This document shows, in pieces, positions 18,523 to 63,422 of a DNA stretch of 64,000 nt. Within the stretch, counting starts at the first letter, position 1; each line of letters opens with the position of its first letter. Location: assembly GCA_903813345.2 (NCBI GenBank), contig CAIIXF020000008.1, forward strand, positions 16,664,822-16,728,821. Direction: 5' to 3'. Under the pieces are notes generated by a model, which was not told where the DNA came from, ran no database searches, and saw nothing but the letters and a program-made list of their open reading frames with translations. The position numbers and the translations under genes were made by a program. The stretch is from Owenia fusiformis (lineage: Eukaryota; Annelida; Polychaeta; Sabellida; Oweniidae).

Positions 18523-18923
18523 CAGGGCTGTCAACTTGGGACCACCTAATATGAGTGACTTACAAATGTTGGACACCGAAGTCCAAATCTGAACACTTTT
18601 GTCCAAATTTTGAACACCTTTGGCCAACTTTTAAATACCTTTGGCCAAAGGTACGAAAATTTCCAATGAACATGCGTGACATATACGGGATTCGCGTGAC
18701 AAATCCGAACAAATTGCGTTCGTTTTTTTCCGACGTTCGTATTTTTACCGTATCATAAACATATTTTGAAATTTTTTTTACAGAAACATATTTGCGTGAC
18801 AATTACCAGGTAAAATGCGTATTTGCGTGACATTTTGTGTCACGCAAAAAAAACTGGCGTGACTTCAAATTCTTCAGCAAATGCGTGACAAATACGCAAA
18901 TTGCGGGACAGTTGACAGGCCTG
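18523..18923. mobile_element. CAG...CTG element E1, 6-bp target duplication
   Basis: Left end cagggctgtcaacttgggac; right end gcgggacagttgacaggcct plus g. The exact duplication ctatat sits on both sides (18,517-18,522 and 18,924-18,929), inside one repeat unit of the foldback element, so this insertion came later. The interior repeats two phrases, ttttgaacacctttggcca on the left and gcgtgacaaatacgc on the right. CAG/CTG ends suggest the hAT superfamily, some lineages of which make 5-6 bp duplications. No coding content. Confidence 0.8.
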
Positions 18924-19254
18924 CTATATAACATTGTCACGGTCATGCCAGGCCTTGCAGTACTATATAACATTGTCACGGTCATGCCAGGCCTTGCAGT
19001 ACTATATTACATTGTCACGGTATTGCCAAGCCTTGCAGAACTATATTACATTGTCCCGGTCATGGCAGGCATTGCAATATAATACAGCATTGTCGCGGTT
19101 ATACCAGGCTTTGTATAAAAAACCTCCTACCTCATACCCACCTACCCATGTACGTGGGACATGATACAGTCTTTGAAGGGTTCAATTTTAAAGATCTTAG
19201 TTTATAAAATCTTAATTTATGATGAATTATAGATGCATTTGTAACGACCCTTGA

Positions 19255-19460
19255 TAGCAAGTTGCTACTACATCCCAGCTGGGTTCGATTCCCACTCAGG
19301 GCATCGAATTTAGCACACTTTCTTTCAATTTCTTTATCTGGCTTGTTGGACCTATGCTCCCGGTTGTTACTTATTTATTCCCCTGGGGCGCCCTCGGGTC
19401 ATTACACATTAAAATGCATCCATATGCGTTTATTTATGGATCTGTCATCTGTCTAGTCAT
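19255..19460 (+). repeat. tRNA-derived SINE-like remnant
   Basis: Holds a good tRNA B-box context (gctgggttcgattcccactc followed by agggca). A 150-200 bp tail follows with tcccctggggcgccctcggg and ends tcataaaataaag. A matching A-box is not convincing. It lies in the spacer of the foldback element. A similar B-box phrase (gtgggttttgattcccacc) occurs at 34,395. This fits a decayed SINE better than a working tRNA gene, since no cloverleaf can be drawn. Confidence 0.4.
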
Positions 19461-31400: not shown

Positions 31401-34400
31401 TCAATTCTCAAATCTTAAGTCAAATTAACTTCTGAAAACTTGTAGATGATTTGAAGAAAAAAAATTTGGTCAATTTGAAGCAAGTTGAAAAAAGCCTTTT
31501 TCACCTTGAAAAGGTCACTGAAGGTCAAATCTTAAATATAAAGTCAGATTTGAACTTCTGAATACTTGTAGATGATTTTGAAAAAAACCGAAGTCAGTCT
31601 AAACAGTATTTGTTAAGTTATTGGAAGTTTTAAAAATTGTTACAGACGCCGACCGCCGATCACCAACCGCCGTCACAAAAAACGGATACCATAACAATAT
31701 GTCACCACCTTTTGCTGGTGACATAATAAATGCCAGCTACTTATCAAAGTATAAGATTCTGAAATAGCATTTCAAATTGGGTGGCTAGATTTGATTGACT
31801 TATTTTGACTGGGTAAGGCTAGATCAAAGGATGATATCTTGAAGCAAAATTTATTGGACATGGCAATAAATCTGTGTTTATATATACCTTTTTCAGAAGT
31901 TCTGGGTGTCTTAGCATATACACTTCTAATGCAGAGAGATGCTTCATATCAGGAGAGAGGGATGTACCATATGTAGACTCATGCACCTGAAATACAGAAC
32001 AAATTATGAAAACTAATTTTCAAATGTACCATATGGAGACTCTGCACCTAAAATGGAGACTCATGCACCTGAAATACAGAACAAATTGTGAAAACTAATT
32101 TTCAAATGTACCATATGTAGACTCATGCACCTGAAATACAGAACAAATTGTGAAAACTAATTTTCAAATGTACCATATGTAGACTCATGCACCTGAAATA
32201 CAGAACAAATTATGAAAACTAATTTTCAAATGTACCATATGTAGACTCATGCACCTGAAATACAGAACAAATCATGAAAACTAATTTCCATAATTGTGAT
32301 GCTCAGTCGAATAGCATTAACAAGCATTACAGTAGATTTATTTACACACCAAGTGTCATCAAAGAATATAATGTCAAACAATGTAGTTATGTCAACCTAA
32401 ACTAATGTTAAAAAAGATAAAAAAAATAATTCCAATTCTGGAAAATCACATTTGTAGATCAATGTGACATTTTTATGTGCAACACAAATTCCAACTTAGG
32501 TGAGGAGCTAATTGGTTTTTAAAGGAAATTCACATTACAATTATTTCCACCACAAAAAGTTTACTTGTACAATAATACCTTATGTGTCAGGACTGCATTC
32601 TGTTTCTGCATTGCAAATAAGTTGCGTAGAGTCATTCTCAGTTTCCCATTCAACCACAACAGGTACTTCACTTTATCTGCAGGGTGGGCAGGGTTGTGAC
32701 TTACTGGTCTTGGGGTACCTTCATCATCCTTGGCCTAGGGAGTAATAAGGAGATTGATAAATGGTACATTTAAAATATAACACAAAAACATGACAGGTAC
32801 CAACTAAATAAATGTTGCTAATTGTAATCAAATTTGAAGTAAATGCAATGAACAGTTTTTCTGGAATGATGATGACAAGATTTATCAAAACCTTTCCCTA
32901 TTCATATTACTGATTACTATTCACCATACTGATTGAAAAGAACCCAACAAATTACAAGCCATTTGTATTTGCATGTATATCTCTTCTCAGAGTATCATTT
33001 GTACATCATATAATGATATCATACTAGTACAATGAGTTATATATAGTCCTTGGATACTTCCTATACTTTACATTACAGGGTTCTCACCAAGAAATATTTA
33101 GACTCCGGATTTTTCACGGTATCGTGACAACCGTTCCCCGTGTGATATCAAAGATAACCTATTAGTATACTTTTCAAAATCCTATTTTAAGCGCAATACA
33201 AAGAAAAAAATTTGACTCCGGAAAAACATTTCAGACTCCGGAAAAGCTATTAGACTCCGGAGCAAGAGAATTTCCAAAGTCAAAAGCCGCGTCGGAACCC
33301 TGCATTATGTATTGTTAAATTTTTAAGTCATATTATGATTTTTGGTGACTTCAAATGGTTGTAAAAGTAACATACATGTACTTCAGGTAAGCCCTTTTAT
33401 TTAAAGACTAACTATGAAGTAAAATTTGCCTCAAATTTCTTCACAAAAATTTACATATTCCCTGCCTATAGTTATAATATTTCTTTTCTTCTCCTCACCT
33501 ACTAGAATGTCTTCAAAAATGAAAAAGCTGTTCAGGTTGCTCTGAGCTTAACTTACAGTATAGAGATCATCAGCAACAGGAGACGAACAATTCTCCATGA
33601 ATTTATCCATAATATTTTCCTTGCATACCAGCCATCCGAACGCTAGCAGGAGTTCCCTGGCCCCCTTTGTCATGTCATTAGGGAGACTAGCAAAGTCCCT
33701 CGAGTAAAAACCAGTCTTTTGCATCTCTTTCTTTACATAGATCACTAACTCATCTGAAATGTAAAATATTCAATGTTATAAGTACACTATTACGGTGAAA
33801 CCTGTCTGAGGGAACGCTTCTAGAAAGAATAGTTTTCAATAGAACCAAATATTTTTCCTTAAGTTACATTTTAAATATAAGAATATACTAGAGACATTTG
33901 GCATTCCTTATATTGGCATTGTACCAAATAATAAAAAAAATGGAAAAAATAATGAGCAACAGAATTTGTATCATTGAGTCCAAAGTAAGTCCCTAAAAAC
34001 ACTTTTTAAAGTTAATTTTGGACACAGTAAAGAATATGGTATGTCTGATTTAATCATGTATTTTATTTAACAACATAAGCTCCATGTATCATTTGTTTTG
34101 CATTTATGTTGCAAATTGTTTTAGTCACTTGTTGTGGTGGGTCATCACATTAATTTTGTCTGGGCAAATAGGAAGCTCTGAAAGGGGAAGTCTGTTCAAA
34201 ATGTACTAACAATGAACAGTACCATAAGACCATGGACAGGCTTTAAACCCCCTCTGTGTCTAACACTGTCTATGGCCTCTAAAAAGTATATTGACAAAGT
34301 TAGCAAAAAAAGATTTTACAAGGTATGATATACCAAGTAGATGTGCCAAGATGTATTAAACCATAAACTAATAAATAAATACATGGAATAAGGAGATTGT

Positions 34401-36884
34401 GGGTTTTGATTCCCACCAGGGTGGAGTGATTTGATCCCTAATGTTTCAGATTAACTAAACTAATAAATAAATAAACAAGGCATTATCACAACAAAATGTC
34501 ACAACCAGCGGTGCAAATGAATACAAGTGTATACATTCTGACCATATTCCAGAGGTTTCAAAAGTCATACTGGCATATTTTATGGCAAAAATACTGAAAA
34601 ATGTAATGACTTACTTGTGGAGAGCTCAGTCACAGCTTTGACGCAAACATCATCAATGATGTGGAACTTGCAGAAGTAAGTCAACTCAAACAACATGATC
34701 CATAATGGTTCCACCTGAAATATTTAATCGAACATAAAGAATTCTGTACCATTCTACATTAGAAATTCAAAAACATGAGGGCATGTAATAACCTTCCACA
34801 TCATTCGTACAATCATGTGGATACACAATATTGATATATGTCAAAATAAAAACAAACAAAAACTACATTGACAAAAATCCACTGCTGGGTTTCGAACTCA
34901 GAGCATGCTTACAAAATGAGTTTTACACCTGTAACACCCCCCCCCCCCCTGTAACACTGTCCACTTGATTGACATCCCCCCTGCCCTCTGTGAAACCCTC
35001 CCCTCCTGTGACAACCTTCAACAACTACTGTAACACCCCACTCATTGTCACCAGTATTTTGTTTGACACTTCCTCCTTCTGTGACATCCTCCCCTGCTGT
35101 GACACCCTTTTTTGTCACAAACTCCTGTAACACCCCTCCTGTAACCCCTAATTAATTGAAAAACTTAAGGTAGTATGCGAGCGAAGGGAGCGCGAAAAAT
35201 TTAAGGTGTTGTAAATTAGACATGAATGTTCAAAATATGAACTTAGTTGTTCAAAAACTGAACTTAGGTGTTAAACTTTAGTAAGTCACTCATGTTGGCT
35301 GCTTTCAGGTTGACAGGGCTGTTGATCTATAACCTACTTTCAGGCATGCTAATTTTTTGGCGAAATATGAGAGACGACACAGTTCAGAGGTTTCACTAGA
35401 ATTTCTAACAACAGGCCTAAGAAATGAAAACAACAGGCAAAATTAATGGAATTCATAAATTTAACATGGAAAAGTAGAAAAATCCCTAAAAACAACAGGC
35501 AATTTTGTGAAAACAATTGGTGAAAATCACCCGTTGCCTGCTGCTAACCCTGCATTTGATAAGCCAAACCCCAAGCAATTAAAGATACAGAAGCATTTTG
35601 CAACTGAAATATGAATGTATTTCCCGATATAATATTGCACTTGTGACTATGCCTCGTTTTTAGGTTTGAAAAGTGATTTAGACCATGGGCATTCAATAGA
35701 TTGAAAGCCCATGTTTAGACTGACAGTTGTAACAGACAAGTAAATTGAAATATTAGATAATTTTCAATAAAGTTCTAGTGGAAAATTATGCAATGTAATC
35801 TAAATGGAAATAATCGACTAACCTTGCTAGCCTAAATTATGTGCTCTATCAGAGCCCATGCCTAAATCTAAAATCAAAACACAAATTCTCGGGATAAGTT
35901 CATATGGTTAAAATAACGAAATAATGAAATGTTACCGTGTCTACTTAGCAGTTTGTTCTATGTCATCCCTCCTGCTAGGTTACATTGTGGAACTCAGCCA
36001 AACACGACACTGAAGGCAGTATTCTGAGGTTATAAAATCTGAATCTTAAAAATTTCCCATTTGCAGCAATGCAGCCCCTTGGAGACTTCCGGAATTGAAC
36101 AAAGTAGCGAACGTTGTGATCTTTCAACTTTAGTTCGTTGTTTTTCACCACTTTATGTGAAGTGTTTTCATTTAGGAGGCGGTCTTATTTGAATGCATCA
36201 TTTCAGGTCTTTATGAATCAATAGATCAATAAGCAGACTAAAATTATAATTTAGCAGTTTCGTTGAAAAAATGATTTGGAATACCCAGTGACTTTAGCAG
36301 CCCTCCCTACAATGTTTGACATTGCTATCTCGGCGTGCCCTCTTCTATAATCAGTAGCAAATGCTCGCAAAACATTTTCCAAAATATTTACTACTGCTTT
36401 CCTTGAAGACATGGTTGGATGACACGTCATTATCGATACAGTAACTAGTCACATGATCAGACACATGTCACGTGATCAGACACAGTTACGCAATCAGTCA
36501 CGTGAGCTTGCAAAATGGACGATCTAAATTTCCAAAAATTCTGCTAAGATCAATATCGACATGTTGTTGCCTTCATTGTCGTGTTTGGCTGCGTTCCACA
36601 ATGTAACCTAGCAGGAGGGATGACATAGAACAAACTGCTAAGTAGACACACGGTAACATTTCATTATTTTGTTATTTTAACCATATGAACTTATCCCGAG
36701 AATTTGTGTTTTGATTTTAGTAAAAAATTTAATTTAAAAAAATTAAAAATCATAAAAATTTGTGTCTCACCGCTGCTTCGTTATCAAATTTGGCAAGACG
36801 GAAGACTTCAGCCTTTATTTTTCTGGTTCCATTGTCTTTAAGGACCCTTGTCAGCAATTCTATAGTCTCTCTTATATTAGCCAT
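28484..36884 (-). CDS. TEDC1: tubulin epsilon and delta complex protein 1 (C14orf80 homologue)
   Basis: Eight exons join in phase: 36884-36771, 34714-34615, 33753-33557, 32734-32579, 31986-31888, 30414-30328, 29548-29339 and 28867-28484. They give 448 aa, close to vertebrate TEDC1. Diagnostic words are EVFRLAKFDNEAAVEPLW (residues 25-42), GARELLLAFGWLV (about 104-116), WLNGKLRMTLRNLF (about 155-168), LSALEVYMLRHPELL (about 207-221) and NERLRNLLVWKEVEDTFWRW (about 230-250). The C-terminal third is predicted coiled coil (LDKVLASIELEIS, IRDIQGEIHSLKSLVDKLEG). TEDC1 works with TEDC2 and the delta- and epsilon-tubulins to make and keep centriolar triplet microtubules. It shares a short upstream region with the C11orf68 homologue. 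Its introns carry many repeats, including duplicated splice acceptors before exon 5. Confidence 0.92.
28918..29010. repeat. GTCACCACC-family MITE, copy D (short)
   Basis: In TEDC1 intron 7: opens with gggcattaacatgcaaaatg, passes ccatttgttacagacgccaa and ends caatatgtcaccaa. These are the shared end phrases of the family in reverse orientation, with almost no interior. Confidence 0.65.
29690..29836. repeat. GTCACCACC-family MITE, copy E
   Basis: In TEDC1 intron 6: aaggcattaacatgcaaaat at the left end, an interior made of caccaaccgccaaacacca phrases, and caccacaagtggtgacat at the right end. The downstream stretch to about 30,290 (ggtcaaaggtcaaggtcaaa) looks repeat-derived too, but its limits are unclear. 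Confidence 0.7.
31127..31733. repeat. GTCACCACC-family MITE, copy F, with internal tandem repeats
   Basis: In TEDC1 intron 5: starts caaggcatcaacatgacaca and atgtcaccacc, holds about five diverged units of 80-120 bp (gtcagatttgaacttctgag, ggtcaatttgaagcaagttg), and ends caatatgtcaccacc with ttttgctggtgacat. It is the inverse-orientation counterpart of copy B at 4,153, with the same internal unit. Confidence 0.75.
31964..32293 (-). repeat. 62-bp tandem repeat duplicating the exon 5 splice acceptor of TEDC1
   Basis: Five copies, starting (plus strand) at 31,964, 32,026, 32,108, 32,170 and 32,232; spacing is 62 bp except one 82 bp step with a 20 bp partial extra copy. Read on the coding strand, each unit holds a polypyrimidine run and acceptor (gttctgtatttcag), followed by the first 20-odd bases of exon 5 (gtgcatgagtctacatatgg). 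Only the copy next to the full exon (acceptor at 31,987/31,986) keeps the reading frame. Confidence 0.9.
33076..33302. mobile_element. CAG...CTG element E4, 5-bp target duplication
   Basis: In TEDC1 intron 3. Ends cagggttctcacc and gtcggaaccctg share an inverted cagggttc. The pentamer catta flanks both sides. The 227 bp interior repeats the phrase gactccggaaaa about four times. No coding content. It fits a hAT-like non-autonomous element. Confidence 0.65.
34919..35150. repeat. low-complexity (C)n and CTGTAACACCCC repeat tract
   Basis: A poly-C run of about 14 is followed by degenerate repeats of tcctgtgacacccc-like words. A 74-codon minus-strand frame here is Gly/Val/Glu-rich and follows from the repeat, not from a gene. 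Confidence 0.7.
35215..35327. repeat. truncated copy of the E1 element
   Basis: Ends gttgacagggctg. Its reverse complement repeats the left end of E1 at 18,523 in the same order: the gctgtcaac terminus, atgagtgactta, then gttyraacacc and ttttgaac phrases. The other end is missing, so this is a one-ended remnant. A further CAG-type element with a repeated acaacaggcaa phrase may follow at 35,341-35,552. Confidence 0.55.
35868..36720 (-). mobile_element. DNA transposon derivative with ~150-bp terminal inverted repeats
   Basis: The arms 35,868-36,019 and 36,567-36,720 are nearly perfect reverse complements (left ctaaaatcaaaacacaaatt ... ggttacattgtgg; right ccacaatgtaacc ... ttttgattttag). The 550 bp between them holds a short minus-strand open frame with a transposase-like start and, upstream of it, a cluster of CACGTG/CACATG boxes (36,446-36,507) that could be its promoter. 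It sits in TEDC1 intron 1, only 50 bp from the exon 1 donor. The near-identity of the arms suggests a recent insertion. Confidence 0.8.
36251..36412 (-). CDS. 53-residue transposase N-terminal fragment
   Basis: An open frame of 53 codons with ATG and TAA, wholly inside the inverted-repeat element. It reads like a small helical DNA-binding domain: MSSRKAVVNILENVLRAF, then IAMSNIVGRAAKVTGYSKS and QRNC. The last part resembles the helix-turn-helix start of DDE-type transposases. The catalytic part is absent, so the element can only move with help from elsewhere. Function is inferred from location and appearance, not from a named homologue. The frame is well kept for a non-autonomous element, so a splice to a lost or distant exon was probably once used. 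Confidence 0.5.
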   Translation of the reverse strand: MSSRKAVVNILENVLRAFATDYRRGHAEIAMSNIVGRAAKVTGYSKSFFQRNC

Positions 36885-42278: not shown

Positions 42279-45200
42279 CTATAACAAACAAACAGGAAAA
42301 AGTAGTGACGGTTAGAAGTAGTCCATATATTCCTCCTCATTGCTGTCTAGTTCCTCGTCTTCATAATCTCGCCATCTGTGTCTCCCAAAATCATAGTTGT
42401 ACCTGCAATGCAATGAGAATCATAAACTGCATGCATAAAGGGACATTCCTGACTAGCCTGTTGCTGTCTTGATATGGCTGCTATAACCAATAATTATAAA
42501 CTATCAACATAAAATTTTTAAAATAAAGAAAATGTATTGTACACTTCGAATGGGCTGCCATCTTAAAAGATTCCTATCAGGAAGTAGTGTCATCGACTCG
42601 AATTTGCTAAAACCCACAAAACCAGCTAGCATTGTTTTAAATTGTCTTGAATTTAAATTTCAAATAATGTTTTTATTTGGTATACTAATACAAGTTTGAT
42701 AAAAAAGAAAGGACGTAAATAAGCAGCTTTAACAGATTTTTTCCTTTTGTTGTTATAAACAAGTTCAAAAGTTGATGAGATAACTTCCCACTACAAATCT
42801 CGAAAGGTGGCAGCATCCTGGAAATGAGTACTGTTACTGTATAATAACTCAGGACTCTGGAGAATCTCAGATATAAGAGGAAACAGATTATTTTTAAAAA
42901 ACAAGAAACAGGACATTTTAATGGAAATAATAGAAAAAGAGGAAACTCCTCTCTAAATATGAGAAATTATGCGTGATAAACTGCAGCTGATTGGCTGAAG
43001 GATGGTCAACATACAAACAAATAATGTCTGAACGTTAATGATGAAAAATTGCAACATTAAAGAGAATTGCATCAAATAAACAATAAACATATTGACCATT
43101 AGCTTATACTAGTTTCTGAGAAAGTAAAACATAATGGATATGTTGACCATTATACTAATCTCTTAGAGCGTAAAGCACATAGTGTAATGTGATACAGCAG
43201 AAATATTTACTCACTCATCTTCATCCTCATCATATTCTTCATCACTATCAACATCGTCATTGTCAACATCATCATAACCATAGAAAGGATGTCCAATTCC
43301 ATATCCCTGTGGGCCACGATTTTTCTGCTTACCTAAATTTAAAGAAAAAATGCCAACTCAAATAAAACAAAAATTAGAAAGAGATCACATACCTGTAGAT
43401 TGCATCAAGTTATCAACAATCGTGTCAGGCATATGAGTAAATATTTTTAATTTAGCCCTTATTTGGGAGTTTTAGATGCAATATTATTTAGGCAGGGGGG
43501 GGGGTGGTGTTTTATAAAAAGGTTACCGCACAAAAGAGACCAATTACTAATTACTCAAATTGTTCAAAATTCATAAATTTTACATGTCACAAATTAGCAA
43601 AATATAAGGGGTTAAATGTACTTCAATGTAATACAGTACACATTTATCTTCAACCTACACATACCTATGAGCGCCATGGGGTCATGTTTCATGGTTGAGA
43701 CATCAACATTGTCTTTAGCAAACTTCTCTTTTGCCAGAAGACCAGCCTTTTCCATCTCCTGTCTGTGGAGCTCATGTATGTCAGTATCCTGAGGGCACCT
43801 AGAAAATATAATGGTCATAGTTAAGCAGCAAGTCAACCATACCTTGTCTAGAAAAAACTGTTAAATGACTGGTTGGTTTTTTGGTGAGGCCCTGTGATGT
43901 AAGTTAGACACAATCACTTCTCATCTATCCACCAGGGCACGCCTTAAGCGTCAGACAGCTGGTCATTATCTGGTTACTTTTGATACTGACCAGTTGATTT
44001 TTTCACTAGGTATAGGAAAATAACATTGCAACTGGTCAGTAATGCCTTTTTGACCAGCAGCTCTAGAATCCTTAGGGCATACACTGCTATCCACTATATC
44101 ATAATACTCTACTTTTATACCCTTCATGATAAGGGTGAATGAGAAAAGCTGATTAAAGCTGTAGTAACTGTGAACTGTACAATTAACAATAAGGAGAGGG
44201 AGGGGGTGTTCATCAGAGGTGCTTTGAAATTAAAAATTAAAATATCTTGTTTTAGAACACAGGCAGAGTTGAAATAGCTTTTAGTTCAAAATGACTGGCA
44301 TCTCTTACCAATTTGATGGTTGTTTTTTGTTTCTATTACAATATATTTGTAGGTCTGCTGGAAACAATGTTATGCACAAATAGTAGTTATGCTGGATGAA
44401 AAAATGTTGGGCAACAAGGGAAAATAAAGACTTCTTTGAAATACCCAAAAATTAATACACTTACTTATTTGGGCCTGTTCCAAAATGTTCATAGCCAATC
44501 TTTGGTTTTCGGCAAACATAGCACATTGTCGCCCCACATGAACATGTCATTTTGTTGCACCCTTCAATCTGAAATCATATTAAAATATAGACCAAGATGT
44601 TATTTCTGATAATAAAGTCACTAATTAACATACTACGTGTAACTCGTATGCTTTTTAAGAAAATTCAAGTTCAAATTGACAAGAAATTTGTAACAAGTGA
44701 TGCAATATTTAATAGGACTTTGAGGAGCAAAAGTGGCTGCCAGGAAATTTACCCAGCATGCCCAATACCTAATCAGATATTGACACTAGTCTGCTCTAGC
44801 ATATGCAAATTTCTAAGTTGAGAATCTAAGTGTTTATTTTAATTATAAAGCGTTAAAGCAATACTTGCGATTGCCTGACTGACCTTACCTTGAAAAATCG
44901 TTTCTTGCATCTCCAGCATTCCCGGATCATTGCTTCAGTGATTTTGTTTTCTATGAAAGTTCTTATGTCTGTTTCTGTCTGTTTTTCAACCTCATTACAT
45001 CTCAGAGGAATATGGTTGACTTCTTTACATAATCTATGGGGAAAAAATAGTGCATGTTACATTGTGTCCTGACACAAACACAATTTTATATTATCAGTAG
45101 GAACAAGTAGCATAAAAAGTTTTACTATACCTTTCAAGGTTCTAGGTGCGTAATGTAAAACTTTGGAACCTTAGAACCTCATGTATATGATTTTGTTTTT

Positions 45201-50899: not shown

Positions 50900-51961
50900 G
50901 CTGACACTGGCTCCTTATTTAGCCACTGTTCTTAAGCTGAAATGACATTAAAATTAACATCTATCATCACAGTGATGCAGTGCATTCAAAAGGTTTTAAC
51001 ACAATTATAAAATTCTAGAGCAGACCCACTAAACTGAGATAACATCCTGCTACCCATGCAGTCAATGTTGAAATTATTTCAAAAAATTCAATGTAGCTCA
51101 TCAAATTCAATTGAATTAAGCAGTAGAAGAGCCCCAGAGCAAAGAGATGACAAACATAATTATGTCTCTTGCTTACCATCTCATCAGCTAGTTTTCGAAT
51201 ATAACACGTCGCTGTGATGTTTTAATCGATGCATATTTCTTACACTTTTCTTTATCTTGATGTGAAATAACAACCTATGATATTGGACTAGTATTGGTTT
51301 AAGCACACCAGAAATAAATATACCATATTCTCTAATAAACGCACAGTGTGTCTCCCAAATTCTCCTGGAGGAGATGTCTCAAATAACAAAATCCACCAAT
51401 GGTGTCATCTCAGTGCACATTTACAAATAGTAAATATGTCCTGAACCCTGAGGTTTTTCCCTCAATAGAATCAAATTATTTCATGAAAATTTTTCTTTTG
51501 AAAAAATTGAATTTTTCTTCAAAAAATTATATAATATTAGCTAACCTTAGACATCAAAGCATTTTATCGTGCCATGATGATATTGAGATAAGAATGCAAT
51601 AAAGTATACACTTACGTCTATTTCTGAAAGTGAAAATATTAGATTTATACACATATTTATGCTTATATTAGGGTAAATAGCATCTTGCCAGGGCACATTC
51701 CGGAAGTACTTGTGAATAGTGACACGCCACAAATTATTTTTATAGGGGTAGTCTTTGATGTATACAAGCACTAAATGTTCTCTAAAAGAGATGCAATCAA
51801 ACACAGCAACAGTTTACACCTAATTTTAAAATCATATTATAAAGAATATCATAATGTGAAAATAAATACATGCATAAGGAATTTTAAAACGTAAAAATAA
51901 GGTTTATTTAAGGTCAAGCTGCTTACACTATACAACTACTAAACTCAGAAAACAAAAAACA
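50900..51961. promoter_or_regulatory. divergent intergenic region between RNF216 and the cystatin gene
   Basis: The two start codons are 1.06 kb apart and point away from each other. RNF216 has an acceptor near 50,936, so its noncoding first exon and promoter lie within or beyond this stretch. The cystatin start follows aaaactcagaaaacaaaaaac directly. No core promoter element can be named. No other gene is seen here. Confidence 0.4.
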
Positions 51962-54900
51962 ATGAAGGTGGCAATTTTCCTGCTCCTTTTGCAGCTTGTT
52001 TCCGCGCAGGCAGTGGGTGGTAAGAAGCGTGTTGAAGTAACAGATGGAGATGCAATACATGTTGCAGAGTTTGTTGTGAAATATATGAATGAGAGAGACC
52101 ACAGAAGTACTAAACTTGACAGTTTATTGAAGGTTGAAAAACAGGTAAAATTTTGTCAATAAAAACATCACATGACATACAATTGAATAAAATTCCTTTA
52201 TGAAGGCAGCTTGGTAAGGGTCATTTTGACCATGACCATTGTGATCCTGACCAAGTAAATGATATATGGGAGTAGTACAACTGACTGAAGATCAAAGCAG
52301 AACTCGGTTATCTTTATCCCGTTCCCGGACTATAGTCCATAGTCCGGGAACGGGATAAGGTTATCTTACTTCAAAAAATTCTAAAATCCACATTTTTTCA
52401 TTTCCTGTTGTTTGGTGTAAGTTTCTTATCCCGTACCAGCACCATAGTCCTGTAACGAGCGCATTATTTTGCCTGTACGATTACAACTTGGGAGAATATT
52501 ATCTACGCCCCTTACACTTAAGATACCTACTTCAATAGATTCCGGGATATTTTAGCATTTTTTTCGTATAGTTGAATCCACAATTGTTTGGGTATATCAG
52601 CAGAATGTGAACATTTTCTTTTTCATCGAGAGATATTCCATCACTTTCCAAGATGGTGGTTGGATTTAAAAGGGGATTTCCCGTTTGACTGGCCGGGATG
52701 TACCAATAAATGGAAAAATTTGACGGTTGAAATAAGTTAAATATTACATGCAAATATTGCGATCAAAAATGAAAATTTCTTTGTTCTGCCGATAAACCCA
52801 GACAATTGTGGATTCAACTACACGAAAAGAATGCTGAAATACCAAGGAATCTATTGAAATATGTATCTTAAGTGTAAGAAGCGTAGAAAATTCTCTCATG
52901 TTATAATCGGACAGGCAAAGGAATAAGACGTTCGCAGGACTATAGTCCTGGCACTGGATAATAAATTTCTGATAACTACTCCGAGACCTTATTAAGTAGT
53001 AAGGTACAATTAAACCCCATTAAAAGTAACACAGCAGATTGTGCTATATATGTCATGGTATAGGGAGAAAATCAATAAACTCAAGGCCTGTGTTACACTT
53101 GCTAACTGTATATTGAATGCTATTACTATGCTAGAATATTTTCTCTCCCTATATCTTGACACTGTTAACATCTTAGACTGAGACAGTCTAAGTTATCCCG
53201 TACCATGCCAGGACTACAGTTCTGAGAATGTCTCAATCTTTTGCCTGTAGGATTACATCATGGGAGAATTTTCTACGCCTCTTTCACTTAAGATCAGTGC
53301 TCTCTTTATGCGTCGGACCATGGGACAAATCCGACTACTTTTGCTCTGGGCCGACCAGGACTAACAGACTGTCAGTCTGAGTGTCCGGCGTAAAAATACT
53401 CACCAAATTATGGGCCAAACTTCGGTCCGATTGTCCTTTTATCCATCCCCGAGGATATGACTGTAATACAACTAATTGTCAGCGGTAAATTACAAAAAAA
53501 AATTCAAATATTTCAGAATATTTTCAACAATTTACGTTATCGGTTGGTGTTGTTTTTTGTTTTCTTTTTGGAGAGTAAAGGGCGCCACCTGGCAAGCGAA
53601 TCTACTGTTCAAAAATTGAACGTTTTTCAAGTTCAGAAATTATTACGTTAAATATCTGGCTGTGGATGCATTAATTCAATACAGGAATTAATGATAATCA
53701 AGTAAGGCATTGTTATATTATAGACATAAAAGGCATTTGTGTGAAAATGACCCACAAAGTTCATAACGCAATCGAATTTCTGGGTGGCTCCAGTATTTTT
53801 AGATTTGTTGTAAAGCATAATTTTTTCACAATCATTTCATTTCGCGAGTACTCTACACCTGGCAAAATCGTGAAAAACACATGCAAGCAAATTCAATGTG
53901 TTTGACAGTCTATTTGGATCACTGAGAATGAGAAAATACGTGTACAGCATGAATACGAGTAGGCCTATGTAAAATTTGAATGCTACTCCGATTTTTCATT
54001 TTTTCCTGGACTGGCAAGAACCAGTCTGGACTGGCTACTAATTAAAAGTAGTCAGTCCAGGGACTGGCTTCTTTTGGTCTGGACTGGTGAACTCTTCAGA
54101 CTTGTCAGTCCGTTGGTCCTGTGACTAATTTTGCCTTAACCTCTTGACTACCCAGAATGACAAGATTTCTCGTCACCTCAGAAATGACCTTGAAACCCAG
54201 AGGGACGAGAAAATCCGTCACAAAATTTTTCACAAAAATTGCTCTCATTTGAACAATTTTCATCGAATTTACACAAATTTTTTTTAAAACATGTAGAAAT
54301 GATCTCTGCCATCCAATTTTACTAAGTTGAGCATCTAAAGTTGTATAGGTATGTAGTAAAATGTCAAAAGGTGGAAAAATGAAAAATTCTTTGGTTTCAT
54401 GCCAATTTTAGAGCCTGGGATTCAAGAGGTTAAGGAGAGCACTGCTTAAAGGGAATGCGAAGTTTCATGTTCTAATTTACACGCTGGCTACTTATAACCA
54501 TCATCTATCACTTCAGCTCACTCATGGGACATATCGTGTTTGAACTAACATATAATTCAAGTTCAAAGTACCCATATCTGGATCGCTGCGGATGCCGCCA
54601 TTGTTATGTATCAATGACGTCATTGATGCCTTAAAATTGATGCCTGGGAAATGTCGCTATATGATCACGTCATACTCGGATCGCAGAAATAGAACACGAT
54701 TTCACTGATATTGTATAACTATTTCTGTCCGCTTGACATTGTTGCCGCATGTTCATGTCCATATCATATCATATATTTGGAAAAGTTGTTTCAATATATT
54801 CTTCATAGAAATTGAATTGTTGCAATGTATTTTTTCAAATGTTTGTATTTATTTTCTCCAATGTGATATAGTATAGGCTAGGTAGAAAAATCACTAAACT

Positions 54901-57900
54901 TATGAGATATCGGCTGCGCGATTCGGAATTCATCGCATTATATTCCACTTGAAAAATGTCCACTAGAATTATTTTATATAATGATAACATTGGGTCAAAA
55001 AGGATAAATCTGTTCAAATCCTGTAAATGCTTTCTTGTATATTTAACCAATAAATGAGGTAAATGCATTAATATATACAAAATGGCATTTACACATAAAT
55101 ACATTACTTTGCATCAATGGTGATTTATTTAACTAAGATTAATGTGGCTAATGTGTTGGCGTATTTGTGGTGAAAATACATGTAAGTAAGTTATATCATC
55201 GGCTGAACGCATCCAACAAATAGTTGCATTTACCATATTTATGTAAATACACGACATACCATTTAAAATATCAAAATCTATGCTAATGTTCATTAATGCG
55301 CTGATGAGCATTTACGGCACATCATTATTAACCTTAAGGTTTACGTCGGCAAATAGGCATACTGCCGCAATTGCATGCTTTCTTACCTAATCATAAGTGG
55401 TAGATTTCTTCAATCTGTAGTATTCTATTCAAATATGAATAGGTGCATATTGGAGAATGAAAGAAATAAAACAAAAAGTAGCAATCCAATGAAACAGTAA
55501 CTCCCTAAAGTGTTTAGCCATTTAAATTCTGATGAAAAACGCAAACAAAAAAACGAAAAATCGATGTCGTCTAAATGATACATATGTAAATGTCAATCTC
55601 CTAAATACTAAGATTGGCAATAGCTTTACAAGGACATGCCACTGTCATATTTTCAAAGAATAATACGTAATGTTTAATTTCTCAGTTGTCAAACGACCAA
55701 TTTCAATATATCATATCACCGTAGCGACATTAGATATGACAAAAAAAGCTTTTCAAAATTCAATGGTATTTCACCTTGGATCATGACAAGAGAAGGCTCA
55801 TAACATTCAGTGATGCGGGGAGACGATGGGGTCGATTGTAGTATGATATTTCATTTCCACGACGATGAGGCAATTGCCGTATTGATAGTACGCCAATAGT
55901 TTAATATTTATTTTATTATATATTTATTTTTTGTTAAAAACAATTCCTGATTTCGAGCTCGAATTTAATTATATAACATCCGTGGTAAGTACAGTTCTAC
56001 GGTATTTTCGAAATAATGATTTACAATTTAATGGCATACAACCTTTTGTTTTTCTATATCGGAAAATAAGTGGAACTTTAAAAGCTTCAGTCACATTTGT
56101 TCAATGCGACCACACGTCGATCGTATTTCCCTGAAATCAGTAAATTTCTGCGGCAAACATAGGAAAACTACAGTCGACTTAAGGTCACTGCACCTTGCTG
56201 TCTACGTACACGACATATCCAGTTTTTACCAGGCGTAGAGTCGGAGTTATAACTTTTTCTTTCCTGTGGTCACTATAGATATCAACAAGCAGCAGCCAAA
56301 CCGTAGGTCTCACAACGGCCGTACGTCGGGTTCACGGTCGACTTGCGGCTGCGCTTGGATTTCATAGGTTTCAATTGACCTTTCCGAACCATAGAACCCC
56401 TTGTGGATGCCTTCAAGAAAAAACTACGCACGTCGTAGGGCCACCCTACGCTGATCGTGCGTCATCATTTATCAGCCGTACAGGAATCGTAGTTTTTCCT
56501 CATAATCAAGATACGCCGTACGGCTATCTTAGCAAATGTGACTGCTAAATTATCTGGCTGCAGAAATACTTAGGCAACCGTGGAAATCCTACTTACCACA
56601 GAAATGATAGACCGTACGGTCCCCGTAAAAATGTGACGTGAGGCTAAGAATCCATGATAGTAATTGAATACGGAATTTTAATTTCTTTGAATACCTGTTT
56701 TAAAGATAAACATAAATGCAATGAATATTAAAGTACGAACACGTGTTTTTGTAATGAGACTAGCAAATTAAACAATTGCATTCTTGGAAATTCAAGATGG
56801 GTTGGTTGAATTAATTTTATTTTGTTTTATTCGAATAGTTTGTATTCGCCTGATAGAATTAGCATTCTCTGTTCGCATTTAGCGCTAGACCTAATAAAAG
56901 TTAAAAAGTCACGAATCCCAGATTATTTCAAGTGTAAATAAAGAATAAATCTAACCCGCATTCCATGTCTAGATAGGTAAAAAGCAATTCCGAAAATGCC
57001 GGCGTTAATATTCAATTGAAATCGTTCTTTATTATGGGTGGTATATACGTAAGCCTATTCTTTTAGTTCCTTTGAAATGATTTCTTTGGTTTTGGAATGG
57101 CAACAACTCGGCATTCATTTTTTGATTCAAAAATGGCGCCACAAAACTTTTGGAATGCCAAGGCATCAATCTGGCATCAATGACGTCATAACAATGTCGT
57201 AAAGAACCACTTTACGGTTGAAATGGCAGCTCCGTGGTCCAGTTCATATGCAAAACCCGGGGCTCAATAACAATTAAAAGGATAATGATAGAACAATAAA
57301 ACTAAGTTGGATTGAAAGATATATCTTTATTCTAACTTATTATCAAGTTTAAGGGACAAAACTTCTCATTCCCTTTAAGATACCTACTTCAATAGATTCC
57401 TGGGTATTTTAGCATTCTTTTCGTGTAGTTGAATCCACAGTTATCTGGGTATATCGGCAGAACGGGAACATTTTTCTTTTTCATCGAGAGAGATTCCATC
57501 ACTTTTCAAGATGGCGGTTGGATTTAAAAGGGGATTCCTTGTTTGACTGACCCGGAAGTGGCCCAGAAGTACCAATAAATGGAGGAATTTGATGGTTGAA
57601 ATAAGTTAAATATAACACACAAATATATATCAAAAACAAAAATTTCTTCATTCTGGGGATAAACTCAGACAATTGTGGATTCACCCCCCCCCAAATTATG
57701 ACTTTTGAGGTATGACAATGTCGGATTGTTCACTTTCAGGTATGAGAATGGTCATGGAAAATATGTTAACTCACACTTGTGGTATGGAATTGGTTTAGGA
57801 ATTCCACATATCCTTAATTTGAGGTTGTTTTGGATCATTTTCTTCATAGATTTGCCTTCTTCTCAAGGCCTTCTTCAGTTTGAATATTAGCTTTTTTCTA

Positions 57901-60900
57901 CTTTGGATAGTAGACACGAAAATGACACTGCTTTGAGTGATAAAAATCGAAAGAGCTACCAACCTAAGATTCAAAAACAAAATCAATGTTGAGGGTTGTC
58001 TATCATCTACTGAAAAGGAAAACACTTCAAAACCACCCCAAACCCACTCAAGTATGAGATACACCAGTTATGTATGGTCAGTTTTGGATATAGGGTATAT
58101 CCCTCAAGAAATATACATGTATAGGGAGGTATGGATATATCCATCAGGATATACCCTATATCCAAAACCTCCCAGTTCATCACCCTTATTTATTTACCTT
58201 TCTTTATCACTTCCTTTCCTGGACATAAAGTACATATTATAACCATCCTATATTTACAACAGATGCATGGTGCAAGTTTAACGTCTAATGTTACTTTTAC
58301 CAAACGGGTTGTGGTTGAATTTAAACTTTTTTCATATAGATATTGTTTCTTAGCCTGGCTCCTTTGATCAAAGGCTCTCGTACAAGAGCTTTTAGCTCTT
58401 AGAGATCTACCAACAACTCCAATACTACTAAAAAACAAAAGAATATGAAATAATTGGTTATTTCAAATATTTATTCCAAACATATCTGAAAACCAAATTT
58501 CTATTTTCAGACTGTAGCAGGCAATAAATGGTTCCTGAAGTTTGATGTAAATGACCCAGAGAAAGGCCAGGTATGTATATGCATATTAAAAGAAGAGTTA
58601 GTAGATATATATTATATTCATCCAATAATTAGTAGGATTTTCTGGATGTAACATCATCACAATTGTTAAATTGATCAATGAATTTTGGAACTGTAAAAAA
58701 TAGCAGGAAAAGCCAGGAAGTATTCCTTCCCCAATCCCCAGCTACCATATTATAAGACTATATGGTTCATCATGGAAGAAAGCGTTTTTGAAGTCTGCTG
58801 CTGGGTTAAATTATATATCTTGATGTGACTTAGTTTGGTTTAGATTAAATTATTACCTCTGATTTTTGGTCCGATATTTTTTCAAGCAATCTCAATTTTT
58901 CTTGGTTTAAAAACATCCTTATTAGTATTTATATTTTTTCAGTTAACAGGTATTTTGGTTATTCTAAGGAAATTTGCTTTATACATTAAATTGATCAGGA
59001 AAGGCTCTTTAGAATAAAAATGTTTAAAACAGATATAGAGTTTGTAACAGTGTATATTAAAAAGCATAAAAGTTGAAGGATATTTCTTTTGTCCCCTTAT
59101 CCCCTTATCTAATGTCCTCATGTTAAGTGGTTGTAAGTTGTCCTTAAATATTACTTAAAATATTGTTACTTTGAAGTAAACAGGAGTAAACAAGTTCTTT
59201 TGTTTGTTAAATGATACTCAGACATGAGGACATAACATTTAATGATACTCCAAGGACAAAGTTGCATAGCAGTTGTCTGAGTTGAACAACTCTAAAAGTA
59301 TAACTTATTTTCTGGCAGACATTAACCCAAAACATGTTTGAATAGTCATCCTAATCATAAGTGTGATATTAGCCTAATATAGATTCTTTGTGATTATGTA
59401 CCCACCACAAGTAGTGACATAACTTTTTTACGGACAGTGTTCGGCGATCAGTCTTTGGTGGTTGGTATTTAGTGGTTTGTGTTTGGTGGTCAGCATCTCT
59501 AACAAATGACAGGTGGTGATATTTTGCATGTTAATGGCTTGTTAATGTATGTTGCAACCCCCCTTTTGGTTCCCAAATCTCTCTTTTTGACAATAAACTC
59601 TATTTGTCTGCATCTAAATAATCTGAGATTGTGCTGACATGAAGTTAATTGATGAATCCATCTTGACTAGACTTCTATATCTGTTTCATAAAAGTTGTTT
59701 ACAAAGCTGAATTCTAAAAAATGGTTCTAGTTTTAACAAACTTTACATGAACTATAAATTTGCAGTTATCAGGTTATTTTAACAGTCATGTAATCTACTT
59801 TAGCAATGAAGAGAAATGAATAGACCTTTTGAAATAGCTATGATATCTTGTTAAGGGATGATATCCAATCATCAACAGTCATGAAAAAACAAAGATATTT
59901 TGTTATGCTCCCCCTCCCCTCATCTAATGAAATTTTAAGATGTTGATTTGTGTTTCATTTGTCTTTGAAAATTCAAAAATCAGTTATATCAAGAAATTGA
60001 TTTTAATCAGAAAACAAGAGTTCAAGTATTGTAAACAAATCCCATGTTCAGCAAATCTATCTGTAGTGTAATGAATAGATGCACAGTGGCAATAATGCCC
60101 ATATGTAGCATGCAGCCCATTATATCTATTATTTTGAAATCTGCCCCCCCCCCTTGCTAAGGGGTGAGATGACAAATTGATCAATGTGGGACTAATTTTA
60201 GCATCAATTCATATGTTTATTTTTACCATGATCTGTTGTTCTTACGGTATACATGGTTCTAACCATATACATATTTAATAATTTGTCATAAAACTATAAT
60301 AAACATTCAGCTTTCAATAGAATGAATTTACTCTCTGAATAGTAATTTTTTTCATTTACAAAGGCGCTGTTATCCATAAAATTAATATAATGTTCATTAC
60401 ACCAGCGCTTGCATTAGGTTAGAAAATTTGTGAGTCCCAAAGACGCAATTTTTTTTTAAAAAGTGTGTCCTTTGAAAAAAAAGTGTGTCCCCTATTTCTA
60501 GCCTGATTTGAGGTATAACTTTATTTTAAAAGCATTTTTTACCAAAACACCTTTCAGTTTTTGATTTCTTGCTGCGAATTTAAAACGGAAGTAAACGTTA
60601 AGTACGGACTGAATAAATGCATGTTCGTTCATTCGACAATGAATACATTTTATTTCATGAATAACCTAATATTTGTTTCTGAATAGGAAAAACTGTGGCG
60701 TGTCATGGTTTCAAATCTAAAAATAAACAAAGTCGAAAAAATTCGAGAGAATCATGATTATTTGTAAATATTCAACATGTTGAGCCTTATTTACAATTCA
60801 AATAAAGGTGAGAGATCATAATTATTTGTTTTTGTTAGGTATCGTTGTAAACACATTGTAGTATTGACCTAAAAAAAATTTGCGTCCAAAAAACGGAAAT

Positions 60901-63422
60901 ATTTTCAATTTTTGCGTCCTCCAAATTATTTTTGAGTCCTTAACATGTAGGGGATGCCGTTAATGCAAGCCCTGATTACATGCTGGTTGGTTGGCATATC
61001 ATTTAAAGTGCTAATGGCTGTAATGCTCCTCTTAAATAGATGTTAAATATTTTGAATTCTTATTGATATTAAACTTATACAATCAACTGACTTATACGTT
61101 ATCATTGGAGCTTGAAAAGCATCGTTCCTGTATAAAGTGAAATGATTTGATCCTGTGATAGTGTAAGTTACATACCATTCTGAATTAAAAATATTCTAGG
61201 GTTACTAAGGATTATACTGTAGATACACTTAATTTGGCTACCATTTTAATTTGACGGATTGGTGGATTCAGAAAATCTACCAAATTAAAAATCTGTCAAA
61301 TTTCAGTGTTGAGGTGTTGTCTAATGCACTTCAGGGGTACTCCAGGGGCCCCTTTTCCTGTCAACATGTCATCAATTCTACATTATTCCAAAAGAAATAC
61401 ATAAAATATCTGAGTAAACACCTGTCCCAATGACATAAACATCTACAAAAATTAAACTTCAGTCCTGAATCCTCCACCAATATTTTAAATTGAGCAAATC
61501 CGTCAAATTAAGTAGTGTTAAAATAAGTGTATCTACAGTAAGGCTTTTAATAATGTAGATAACATTGCAGGTGAATCAATAAAAGATGAATATCAATATT
61601 GTATTGATAGAAAATATTTTCTGTTTTATATCTTACAATGTGAAAAACAACATGCATGATTTGCAGAATATCAAACTTGATTCTAGATCCAGATTAAACT
61701 TCGCTAATCCTTCAGTAGAGTTTTGCGACTGTTCAATTTGAAATAATTGATGCTTCATATTTCATGTTTTTTGTCTCAAAAGCTCAGTACTGTCAACCCC
61801 CAAAGATTTTCTCGCGGGACATATTTTTTAGACCCAGTTCCCAAAATTCGCGGGATTTTGCGGGACATCCACCTAAATTCCCGGGATTTCGCGGGACATT
61901 TAAGGGATTTGCGTGATTGCGCTAAAAGGAGAAATGTTGATCAAATTCGCGGGATTTCGCGGGACCATTCGAGGGACAAACACGCTACTTGCGGGACAAT
62001 TAACAGGGTAACCACCAAAGACTTCAGAGAGGGATAATTTTTCTAGACAAAGTGTCCTAAATTCGCGGGATTTTGCGGGACATCCACCTTTTGCGGGATG
62101 TCGCAGGACATTCAAGGGATTTTTAATGTAAAAGTACTCTTGAATCAAACTTTCAGATACTGATTTATCAAATATAATGCACTTAACTAAAAGTAAACGT
62201 CAACACAATTCCACACAATACGCATAGAACTATTATTAAACTATCATAAACCACGCTTTAGGTGTGAGTACCGTAATCCGACACGAAATTCAAAAATTCT
62301 TGTGAATACTTTGCACTTATGGCGTTCGTGAATCGTGACCAACTATGAAACATTTAACCCCATAGTGTAATATATCAAAATGTACCTATTCGTATAGGGG
62401 TTCGATTATTCTACATCAAATTATGGGGAGTCAGGTTTCTTTTCGAGATATCAGTGTCCATTTATTGGAACTCGCGTTTGCTAACATTTGTTCAGTTCTG
62501 AGATGAAGGCCGTGACACGCGTAGTAAAAAGGCCAACGTTGGAACTAATCGTGACATACATCCCTATTTCCGTAATTAAAATGAAATTTGCACTCTTCCT
62601 CTTTATTTTGATACCAAACGGCATGCTAGAAGCCAACTATGGTGTTATTTGGATCAAAATCATAGTTTTATAAGTGTACTATATGCTCCTTCCAAAAGCA
62701 GTCTTCGATGATCTGATGCACTGGGAGTTCGGCAGCACTTTTCAAATTAGGTAAACTTGACTCCTCAAAAGTGCAAAAAGCTTAGCTTCTTATATCACAA
62801 TATAATCACAATTATTTAGCCTCGGGGATTGTTACAATTTTGAAAATTCGCGGAGGTCAAAGCCGTCGTTTGCGGGAATTCGCGGGACATTGCGGGACAC
62901 GCGAATAAGCCAAATTTTGGTCAAATTCGCGGGATAATCCCGCCATTCGCGGGACACTTGACAGCTCTGAAAGCTGAGCCCATAGAATATACCCCTAGTT
63001 CATCCATCTATTCATCAGTCATCCGGCAGTTCAAGAAGTTCGCCATAGAAAAGTTCAGTAAAGTCCTTGAACAATTATATTCATATATTTTGCACTTATG
63101 ATTGCTTTGAAGAGTGTAAAATTTATTTAATGTATATTAGACTCACTGTCATATTCTTCTTTTATTTTCACAGTTAGAACGATGTGTTGCTGAAGTGCAT
63201 GAGCAATCATGGCTGGAGAAAATGGAAGTTTTGTCCCTGGATTGCAACGCGGAATCCCAGAATACCCTAAAATATGCACAAATGACTGGAGGGCCTCGAC
63301 CTATCGATGTGAATGACGCAGGTGTTCAGGGGGCCTTAAAGTTTGCCATGACAACCATCAATGGCAGGTCTAACTCATTGTATAGACATATGCTGACACA
63401 GACTGTTGAAGCAACCTCTCAG
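51962..63422 (+). CDS. secreted multi-domain cystatin, 5' part
   Basis: Three exons, all phase 0: 51962-52144, 58511-58570 and 63174-63422, 164 codons so far; the last donor leads off the window, so the gene is partial. A signal peptide (MKVAIFLLLLQLVSAQA) is followed by cystatin domain 1. It has an N-terminal Gly pair (AVGGKK), the helix (HVAEFVVKYMNERDH), the QxVxG loop QTVAG formed across the exon 1/2 junction, KWFLKFDV, and a Cys pair around HEQSW (in place of the usual PW loop). A second domain starts with TGGPRPIDVNDAGVQGALKF and stops just before its own QxVxG exon. Cystatins block papain-type and legumain-type cysteine proteases. The exon pattern repeats per domain, so more domains are likely beyond 64,000. 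Intron 1 (6.4 kb) is full of mobile elements. Confidence 0.88.
52314..52358. repeat. perfect 20-bp palindrome
   Basis: The arms ttatcccgttcccggactat (52,314-52,333) and atagtccgggaacgggataa (52,339-52,358) are exact reverse complements around a 5-base loop. Similar words (cgtaccagcaccatagtcct, gcaggactatagtcctggca) recur at 52,433, 52,935 and 53,195, so it is probably the terminal part of the element family at 52,430. Confidence 0.85.
52430..52975. mobile_element. inverted-repeat element, copy 1 (cystatin intron 1)
   Basis: The arms of about 190 bp are imperfect reverse complements: left has cacttaagatacctacttca, atagttgaatccacaattgt and aacattttctttttcatc; right has acaattgtggattcaactac and atgtatcttaagtg. 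A second copy lies at 57,375-57,690, and a third partial arm (53,210-53,292) is cut by element E3. The superfamily is not clear. Confidence 0.7.
53293..54444. mobile_element. CAG...CTG element E3, carrying a nested MITE
   Basis: Ends cagtgctctctttatgcgtc and ggagagcactg are inverted (cagtgctctcctt on the far side once the nested MITE is removed). Flanks cttaagat and cttaaagg share six of eight bases, so a target duplication is plausible but not exact. The interior repeats agtctggactgg / cagtccag words in both orientations at both ends (53,315-53,400 and 54,005-54,125), with a unique AT-rich middle. No open frame looks like a protein. Confidence 0.65.
54136..54433. mobile_element. piggyBac-like MITE, copy 1
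   Basis: TTAA on both sides (54,136-54,139 and 54,430-54,433) encloses the inverted ends cctcttgactacccag and gggattcaagagg. The TTAA duplication is the piggyBac signature. It has landed in the right end of E3, so E3 is older. A second copy, in reverse orientation, is at 63,438-63,734. No coding content. Confidence 0.85.
54445..56087. other. intron sequence, nothing recognised
   Basis: Cystatin intron 1. AT-rich, with no exon, RNA gene or clear repeat seen. The flank cttaaagggaatgcgaagtt at 54,445 matches aaacttctcattccctttaa at 57,360 in reverse complement, hinting at a larger rearranged or composite element between them. Confidence 0.4.
56088..56544. mobile_element. CAG...CTG element E8, CpG-rich interior
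   Basis: A perfect 12-bp inverted terminus: cagtcacatttg at 56,088 and caaatgtgactg at 56,533-56,544. The 457 bp interior is much richer in G+C and CpG than the surroundings and repeats cgtacggc/gccgtacg and cgtaggg/ccctacg words. No target duplication was found. The interior composition contrasts sharply with the AT-rich intron. Confidence 0.65.
57375..57690. mobile_element. inverted-repeat element, copy 2 (cystatin intron 1)
   Basis: Same family as 52,430-52,975: aagatacctacttcaataga and tgtagttgaatccacagtt on the left, then cagacaattgtggattca on the right, cut off early by a short C-run. The interior word cttttcaagatggcggttgg is shared with copy 1. Confidence 0.7.
57691..59402. other. intron sequence around cystatin exon 2
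   Basis: Apart from the 60-bp exon 2 (58,511-58,570), no coding or RNA feature is seen. A short inverted pair (gttttggatatagggtatat at 58,081 and atataccctatatccaaaac at 58,149) could form a hairpin with arms of about 20 bp. Confidence 0.5.
59403..59549. repeat. GTCACCACC-family MITE, copy G
   Basis: Starts ccaccacaagtagtgacata, has ggtggttggtatttagtgg phrases inside, and ends caggtggtgatattttgcat then gttaatggcttgtt. In cystatin intron 2. Confidence 0.7.
59550..60402. other. intron sequence, nothing recognised
   Basis: Cystatin intron 2. AT-rich DNA with no gene, RNA or clear repeat. A short C-run sits near 60,145. Confidence 0.4.
60403..60974. mobile_element. CAG...CTG element E5
   Basis: Ends cagcgcttgcatta and taatgcaagccctg are inverted. 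The flanks share attac (60,396-60,400 and 60,975-60,979), offset by two bases on the left. The interior repeats agtgtgtcc, gagtcc and tgcgtcc words near both ends (60,434-60,500 and 60,885-60,945) around an AT-rich middle. Non-coding. Confidence 0.6.
61785..62969. mobile_element. CAG...CTG element E2, 6-bp target duplication
   Basis: Ends cagtactgtcaacccccaaa and gcgggacacttgacagctct plus g, with the exact hexamer aaagct on both sides (61,779-61,784 and 62,970-62,975). The right end is related to that of E1. The terminal thirds are packed with cgcgggattttgcgggacat phrases (about ten). The middle (62,110-62,800) is unique and includes a 61-codon plus-strand frame (62,488-62,673) with no recognisable protein. 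In cystatin intron 2. Confidence 0.8.

Follow-up and report, generated by a model that had tools for sequence, protein, structure and literature searches.

Within a 64,000-base stretch of the genome of the annelid Owenia fusiformis (contig CAIIXF020000008.1, positions 16,664,822 to 16,728,821; 35% G+C), referred to below as the window, we find a group of short CAG...CTG elements, which we designate E1 to E7, together with two partial ones, E8 and E9 (Table 1). We consider it very probable that the group comprises several small non-autonomous transposons of the hAT type, without a recognisable gene and from at least three subgroups, which would be moved in trans and whose short repeated words would serve as transposase sites. 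They may be miniature inverted-repeat transposable elements: their lengths are 154–1185 bp, and the scanned pieces showed no transposase domain. Elements of the hAT type are already well known, and those described here look like additional members of several subgroups.

The ends and the flanking target duplications carry the first part of the evidence. Each of the seven listed elements begins with CAG and ends with CTG in a short terminal inverted repeat; an earlier note, made from the sequence alone, had listed the same seven, and only its start of E4 has to be moved, from 53293 to 53295. The four exact target duplications that it had reported are also found, namely ctatat at E1, catta at E2, ctatccac at E3 and aaagct at E7 (6, 5, 8 and 6 bp). 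Held against the 8 bp expected of hAT elements, or 5, 6 or 7 bp in named subgroups, the duplication is exact in four of the seven elements, imperfect at E4 and E6, and lacking at E5. A scan for CAG...CTG pairs lying 80–4000 bp apart with at least 10 of 14 end bases matching returned 614 pairs; an exact duplication of 5–8 bp, or one of 8 bp with a single mismatch, flanks four of these, which are E1, E2, E3 and E7. Expectation by chance was gauged with 40 local dinucleotide shuffles, counting CAG...CTG pairs of 100–1300 bp: a 6-bp duplication was observed twice against a shuffle mean of 0.075, an 8-bp duplication once against 0, and a 5-bp duplication once against a mean of 0.275, and the duplication of E2 taken alone is therefore not decisive. 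Pairs with at least 13 of 14 matching end bases numbered 15 against 0.275 in shuffles; they include E1, E4, E5 and E6, and many of the others come from tandem arrays. An empty site was obtained for E1 only. This element interrupts a 39-bp tandem array, and its joined flanks (GCAGAACTATAT running into AACATTGTCACGG) read through one ctatat like the neighbouring intact units; the ends of E1 therefore coincide with an insertion boundary.

E1, E7 and E8 form the only set in which a relationship between the ends is demonstrated by sequence comparison. The window contains five mismatch-free copies of CAGnnCTGTCAA, two at the ends of E1, two at those of E7, and one at the minus-strand tip at 35321, from which E8 aligns inward with the left end of E1 (74% over 90 bp, E=5e-10; about 120 bp counted from the tip). 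An alignment that starts at the tip also connects the right end of E1 with that of E7: in each, TGTCCCGC immediately follows the terminal repeat, and at two more positions of the alignment TGTCACGC in E1 faces TATCCCGC and TGTCCCGC in E7. The right end of E1 also matches an inner right end within E7 (85% over 33 bp, E=1.4e-4). GCGTGAC and GCGGGAC stand at 7:1 in E1 and 0:9 in E7 (Fisher p=4e-4, a value that assumes independent copies, which they are not). Within this hAT6-like lineage the word has changed by one base, as seen for the single pair E1/E7. The earlier picture of related ends with diversified words is borne out to this extent, for the ends of E1, E7 and E8 and for one word pair; the other elements differ in their ends and duplication lengths. 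A more far-reaching proposal, in which hAT6-type sister lineages in one genome changed whole word arrays in step (GCGTGAC in E1, GCGGGAC in E7, perhaps TGTGACA/TGTAACA in E8) and the word acts as a key barring the transposase of another lineage, strikes us as doubtful.

E7 is itself an internal end-to-end composite. Its left 222 bp terminate in a right-end copy, TTGCGGGACAATTAACAG, and the second left-end copy is 79% identical to the first over 116 bp; the composite part spans 61785–62122. The whole bears one exact 6-bp duplication, which makes it probable that E7 moved in its composite form; the inner ends are eroded. Neither this structure nor the TTAA element nested in E4, described below, was part of the earlier note.

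The second part of the evidence is the short repeated words behind the tips, which are enriched in their elements. Exact copies inside the elements number seven for GCGTGAC, four for GACTCCGG, three for CGTACGGC, two for AGTGTGTCC (at the left end only) and five for CGCGGGAC, with single copies of AGTCTGGACTGG and TTTTGAACACC; none of these words occurs elsewhere in the window, and TGACCAG occurs four times in its element and twice elsewhere. The words, which had been described as private repeated phrases, are real and nearly confined to their own elements, yet mostly degenerate, as the single exact copies illustrate. The further claim that each word is packed at the ends in both orientations holds for E3, E4 and E5 (the last with a near-palindromic word), but not for E2, E6 and E7, where nearly all copies lie on one strand, nor for E1. 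Counting exact and near-exact words, the strand tallies are 7+/1- in E1 (seven GCGTGAC and one GCGGGAC, six of the eight in the right half), 4+/0- in E2, 6+/0- in E6, where an additional TTGCGTC lies on the opposite strand, and 15+/1- in E7. Divided by end, E7 has 10+/0- on the left (up to about 310 bp from the tip) and 5+/1- on the right (up to 93 bp), E6 has 3+ and 3+, E2 has 1+ and 3+, and E3 has 2+/1- and 1+/1-; E2, E6 and E7 thus carry one-strand words at both ends, with one exception in E7, and E3 is mirrored. A subterminal motif is present at both ends of E3, E4, E6 and E7, with one word on the left and three on the right in E2, an uneven arrangement in E1 and an unclear one in E5. The six copies of GNGTCC in E6 all lie on one strand and no more than 100 bp from a tip; 0.098 would be expected for this word, which was picked after inspection.

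Two controls were applied to the words. The most repeated 7-mer of each element was compared with 300 shuffles and with 300 random windows of the same length; no shuffle reached it for E1, E2, E3 and E7, six did for E4 and three for E5. A search for a degenerate 9-base motif was run with identical settings on the elements and on 40 shuffles, and no shuffle reached the score of E1, E2, E3, E4, E5, E7 or E8, which covers six of the seven listed elements. The margin is narrow for E3 (45.6 against a shuffle maximum of 44.7), and the motif found in E1 is A-rich and differs from its GCGTGAC word. As for the truncated and the possible further member that had been placed at 35,215–35,552, the relic E8 covers part of the former, and E9 has a clear right end, but its motif score is reached by 2 of 40 shuffles and is not clearly above them.

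Subterminal words of this sort had been likened to the transposase-binding sites of both hAT and CACTA elements. The likeness to hAT persists by ends, duplication lengths and words; that to CACTA fails by ends and duplication length. Elements of the CACTA (EnSpm) class have CACTA-type ends and duplications of 2–3 bp; here the ends are CAG and the exact duplications 5–8 bp, and membership of that class was rejected. The observed duplications, 5, 6 and 8 bp long, agree with those published for hAT5, hAT6 and ordinary hAT elements, which argues for a mixture of several hAT subgroups: a 6-bp subgroup would hold E1, E7 and, by its ends, E8; a 5-bp subgroup E2 and perhaps E9; and an 8-bp subgroup E3, probably with E6 and E4. 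The usual hAT duplication is 8 bp; groups that make 5 or 6 bp have been named hAT5 and hAT6 and belong to a lineage that includes Blackjack and further families from animals (PMC12730594). The hAT6 group (Kapitonov and Jurka 2007, cited in PMC12730594) shares its 6-bp duplications with E1 and E7, an assignment by duplication length only; the hAT5 group (same source) shares its 5-bp duplication with E2, a single insertion, a 5-bp match having a chance expectation of 0.275 in the scan.

Taken together, a model for the mobility of these elements can be proposed. A transposase encoded elsewhere would move each element in trans; it would cut at the CAG tip and leave the duplication length typical of the subgroup, the duplications being visible at the sites and the enzyme putative. 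The private words behind the tips would most likely be sites for the BED zinc finger of the transposase, gathering several enzyme copies, by analogy with Hermes, Ac, Herves and Tag1, and each lineage would have its own word because each enzyme would have its own preference. hAT transposases bind short subterminal repeats via an N-terminal BED domain, Hermes cooperatively at one site pair, and the Hermes repeats are left-end 2–7 antisense and right-end 1–5 sense (PMC10368747). This polarity would be the arrangement of E2, E6 and E7, provided that each end is read from its tip inward, a reading suggested by the names of the substrates. Hermes resembles the present elements in having words behind the tips, with AAGT as its word and an 8-bp duplication (PMC10368747); E3 is mirrored instead. 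In Herves the transposase binds a motif common to the two ends, and in Tag1 the left and right motifs differ (PMC3143072), perhaps as in E1 with its GAACACC-like words on the left and GCGTGAC on the right, although Tag1 is a plant element with unrelated words. Ds1 of the maize Ac/Ds family (PMC3260210) differs in ends and words from the elements here, and different hAT elements carry different subterminal motifs (PMC3143072, PMC3260210). hAT-derived DNA-binding proteins, along with four hAT proteins with a clear motif, have diverse specificities, usually for CGG or CGC, a preference also usual among DNA-binding proteins with BED and Hermes domains (PMC8097297). CGG or CGC is present in five of the seven words here against 5.8% of the 8-mers of the window, although this set of words was selected with the data in view. 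Should the words be binding sites, E1 and E7 would offer natural pairs of related transposon ends with sites one base apart, in which the co-evolution of transposase and site becomes directly testable; if they are not, what is left is ordinary transposon annotation.

Several observations weigh against this assignment. Other trinucleotides yield 0 to 38 duplication pairs in the 80–4000 bp scan, among which the four for CAG are not unusual; the raw count is therefore no evidence, and the case stands on ends, duplication and words jointly. GCGTGAC is unevenly placed in E1, and the alignment between the right halves of E1 and E8 does not exceed that of shuffled sequence, its score being attained by 82 of 300 shuffles. 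For E6, the top 7-mer is reached by 284 of 300 shuffles, and the 9-base motif by 1 of 40 (2 of 30 in another run). Random windows equal the top 7-mer of E1 to E7 in 14, 8, 10, 93, 84, 290 and 34 of 300 cases, in a window rich in tandem arrays. No hAT, BED or transposase domain was found in the 20 open reading frame (ORF) stretches scanned, which comprise 10 of the 24 ORFs of at least 110 aa plus nine pieces in or overlapping E4–E7 and one exon from the 78 ORFs of at least 45 aa in 53295–63800, the interiors of E1–E3 lying outside this set. Each family is seen once here, E1/E8 and E1/E7 being related at most, so that the tips are boundaries judged from single copies.

Alternative explanations differ in how much of the group they touch. 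The earlier note favoured a single hAT-related lineage that radiated in this genome, with all words derived from one ancestral site; the CAGnnCTGTCAA ends common to E1, E7 and E8 would follow from this, as would the alignable right ends of E1 and E7, whose words differ by a single base, and the resemblance of E3 and E6, whose ends are merely alike (CAGnGCnnGCnTTA-like). We regard such a radiation as unlikely, given that duplication lengths differ (5, 6 and 8 bp) and that E2, E3, E4, E5 and E6 share little with the E1/E7 set beyond the generic CAG tip. Alternatively, the elements could have acquired their words through internal slippage or tandem growth, as by-products that are not binding sites. 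Many E7 words indeed follow in 10-bp steps (63,73; 94,104; 162,172; 278,288; 306,316; 1085,1095,1105), tandem phrases make up the left part of E1 (21 bp, 3.2 copies) and the word phrase of E2 (20 bp, 3.1 copies), the one-strand polarity fits local duplication, and equally repeated 7-mers are frequent in random windows of this array-filled stretch. Slippage leaves unexplained why the words of E6 and E7 lie at both ends and are sparse or absent between, why E3 carries its words as mirror images, 27 and 30 bp inside the tips, and why, at the right end of E1 as of E7, the terminal repeat is followed immediately by the first copy; we judge it quite improbable.

A more serious possibility, to which we give somewhat less than an even chance, concerns individual members: E5 foremost, and perhaps E4, may not be hAT but an inverted-repeat element of another sort, or else an inverted repeat that is old or arose by chance. 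No target duplication flanks E5, CCGTACGG recurs beyond it at 56612, and the sequences on its two sides align weakly as an outer inverted repeat, at a level reached by 3 of 200 shuffles and at most borderline; the flanks of E4 (cttaagat/cttaaagg) match at 5 of 8 positions only. Both elements nevertheless carry motifs scoring above all 40 shuffles, and the perfect 12-bp terminal repeat of E5 begins with CAG. Judged by ends, duplication lengths and words, the hAT type and the putative subterminal binding words are well supported for E1, E2, E3 and E7 and less so for E4 and E6, which are probable hAT elements, and E5 is weakly assigned.

Table 1 Elements and associated features in the window
Feature	Positions	Strand	Length (bp)	Ends	Flanks	Remarks
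E1	18523..18923	+	401	CAGGGCTGTCAAC/CAGGCCTGTCAAC	ctatat, 6 bp	hAT6-like
E1 left target duplication	18517..18522	.				right copy 18924-18929; inside 39-bp tandem array
E2	33076..33302	+	227	CAGGGTTC	catta, 5 bp	hAT5-like; GACTCCGG x4, single strand
E8	34940..35321	-				decayed E1 relative; tip 35321; 34940 conjectural, set next to a poly-C tract; other end not located
E9	35322..35552	+		CAGGGTTAGCAGC (right)		partial; right end (tip 35552) alone clear, left limit not located; CAACAGGC x3
E3	43933..44086	+	154	CAGGGCACGCCTTA/CAGTGTATGCCCTA	ctatccac, 8 bp	CTGGTCA mirrored 27 and 30 bp from tips
E4	53295..54444	+	1150	CAGTGCTCTC		length includes nested element; NGGACTGAC-like motif at both ends
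TTAA-flanked miniature element	54136..54433	.	298			nested 11 bp inside right tip of E4
E5	56088..56544	+	457	CAGTCACATTTG		perfect 12-bp terminal repeat; CGTACGG-type words; class uncertain
E6	60403..60974	+	572	CAGCGCTTGCATTA/CAGGGCTTGCATTA	attacac/attacat	imperfect duplication
E7	61785..62969	+	1185	CAGTACTGTCAAC/CAGAGCTGTCAAG	aaagct, 6 bp	hAT6-like; GCGGGA x16 (15 on +)
E7 inner junction	61967..62089	+				eroded right end (to ~62006) abutting second left end (from ~62010)

The miniature element nested in E4 is a later insertion. When it is removed, the right end of E4, CAGTGCTCTCCTTAAGGC, continues its match to the left end, CAGTGCTCTCTTTATGCG, restoring the terminal repeat. A second copy lies on the opposite strand at 63438–63734 (85% over 309 bp), and both copies have CCTCTTGA inverted ends. 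We take this passenger, being of the TTAA-duplicating kind, to be of piggyBac or Kolobok type. Beyond the right end of E5, the extra CCGTACGG (56612) is joined by AAATGTGAC (~56629), both falling 65–95 bp outside the element (56612–56637), as though its end had been duplicated.

The CpG content of most elements departs from that of the window, for which observed/expected is 0.47. E1, E2, E5, E6 and E7 reach 1.15–1.37, two to three times the window value, and 0.98–1.43 outside the words; E4 minus its nested element has 0.80 and E3 has 0.28. Random windows attained the value of the element in 7 of 890 cases for E1, 12 of 916 for E2, 15 of 894 for E5, 17 of 871 for E6 and 0 of 825 for E7 (35 of 825 for E7 outside its words), and in 66 of 841 for E4 and 529 of 936 for E3. 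The high CpG suggests either that the insertions are rather recent or that their sequence has been protected from CpG decay, two possibilities indistinguishable here.

Thirteen inverted pairs were inspected by eye, including 10 CAG pairs with at least 12 of 14 matching end bases; among these 10, the sole possible extra member lies at 7203–7313. This 111-bp candidate has perfect 12-bp ends, CAGGGTGGGCAA, with GGGACACT behind each end and no clear duplication, and is possibly a further hAT-like member. Pattern scans of viral contigs returned 22 stretches for the E1/E7 right end, none for the E7 word pair, one each for the TTAA element and the E4 end, and two for the E1/E8 left end. Among 78 viral and prokaryote loci, CAGnnCTGTCAA was present in seven, with an inverted partner within 3 kb in none, a test that addresses the E1/E7 end type only; 52 of the loci, those from prokaryote genome contigs, came from a pattern one base too long and carry no information on E1. 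We take these pattern matches as chance, presumptively so for the four loci from the TTAA-element, E4-end and E1/E8 patterns. A search of the window against Rfam gave no match at the gathering score, and a PDB sequence search with the ORF at 48512–50914 gave no match.

Other repeats and likely host exons share the window with these elements. An inverted repeat of about 40 bp at 17903–20812 surrounds 2.9 kb that contain 39-bp tandem arrays, and E1 sits in these. A repeat of about 900 bp is present on opposite strands at 5347–6235 and 25835–26736, with listed arms 79–96% complementary; it contains tandem units of 135 bp, has a (CGGA)n microsatellite at one of its ends, and resembles the central-repeat Helentron elements (pearl, Cg_HINE) of bivalves (PMC7492417). 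An element at 35949–36637 has nearly perfect inverted ends, about 80 bp ungapped, that reach outward past CAG, and a TA-flanked element at 61215–61540 has inverted ends CTGTAGATACACTTA. Likely host exons lie at 39293–39862 (Bles03 domain, E=7e-20), at 30043–30420 (TEDC1, 5.9e-7) and at 63141–63446 (cystatin-like, 4.2e-4, just below the Pfam cut-off).

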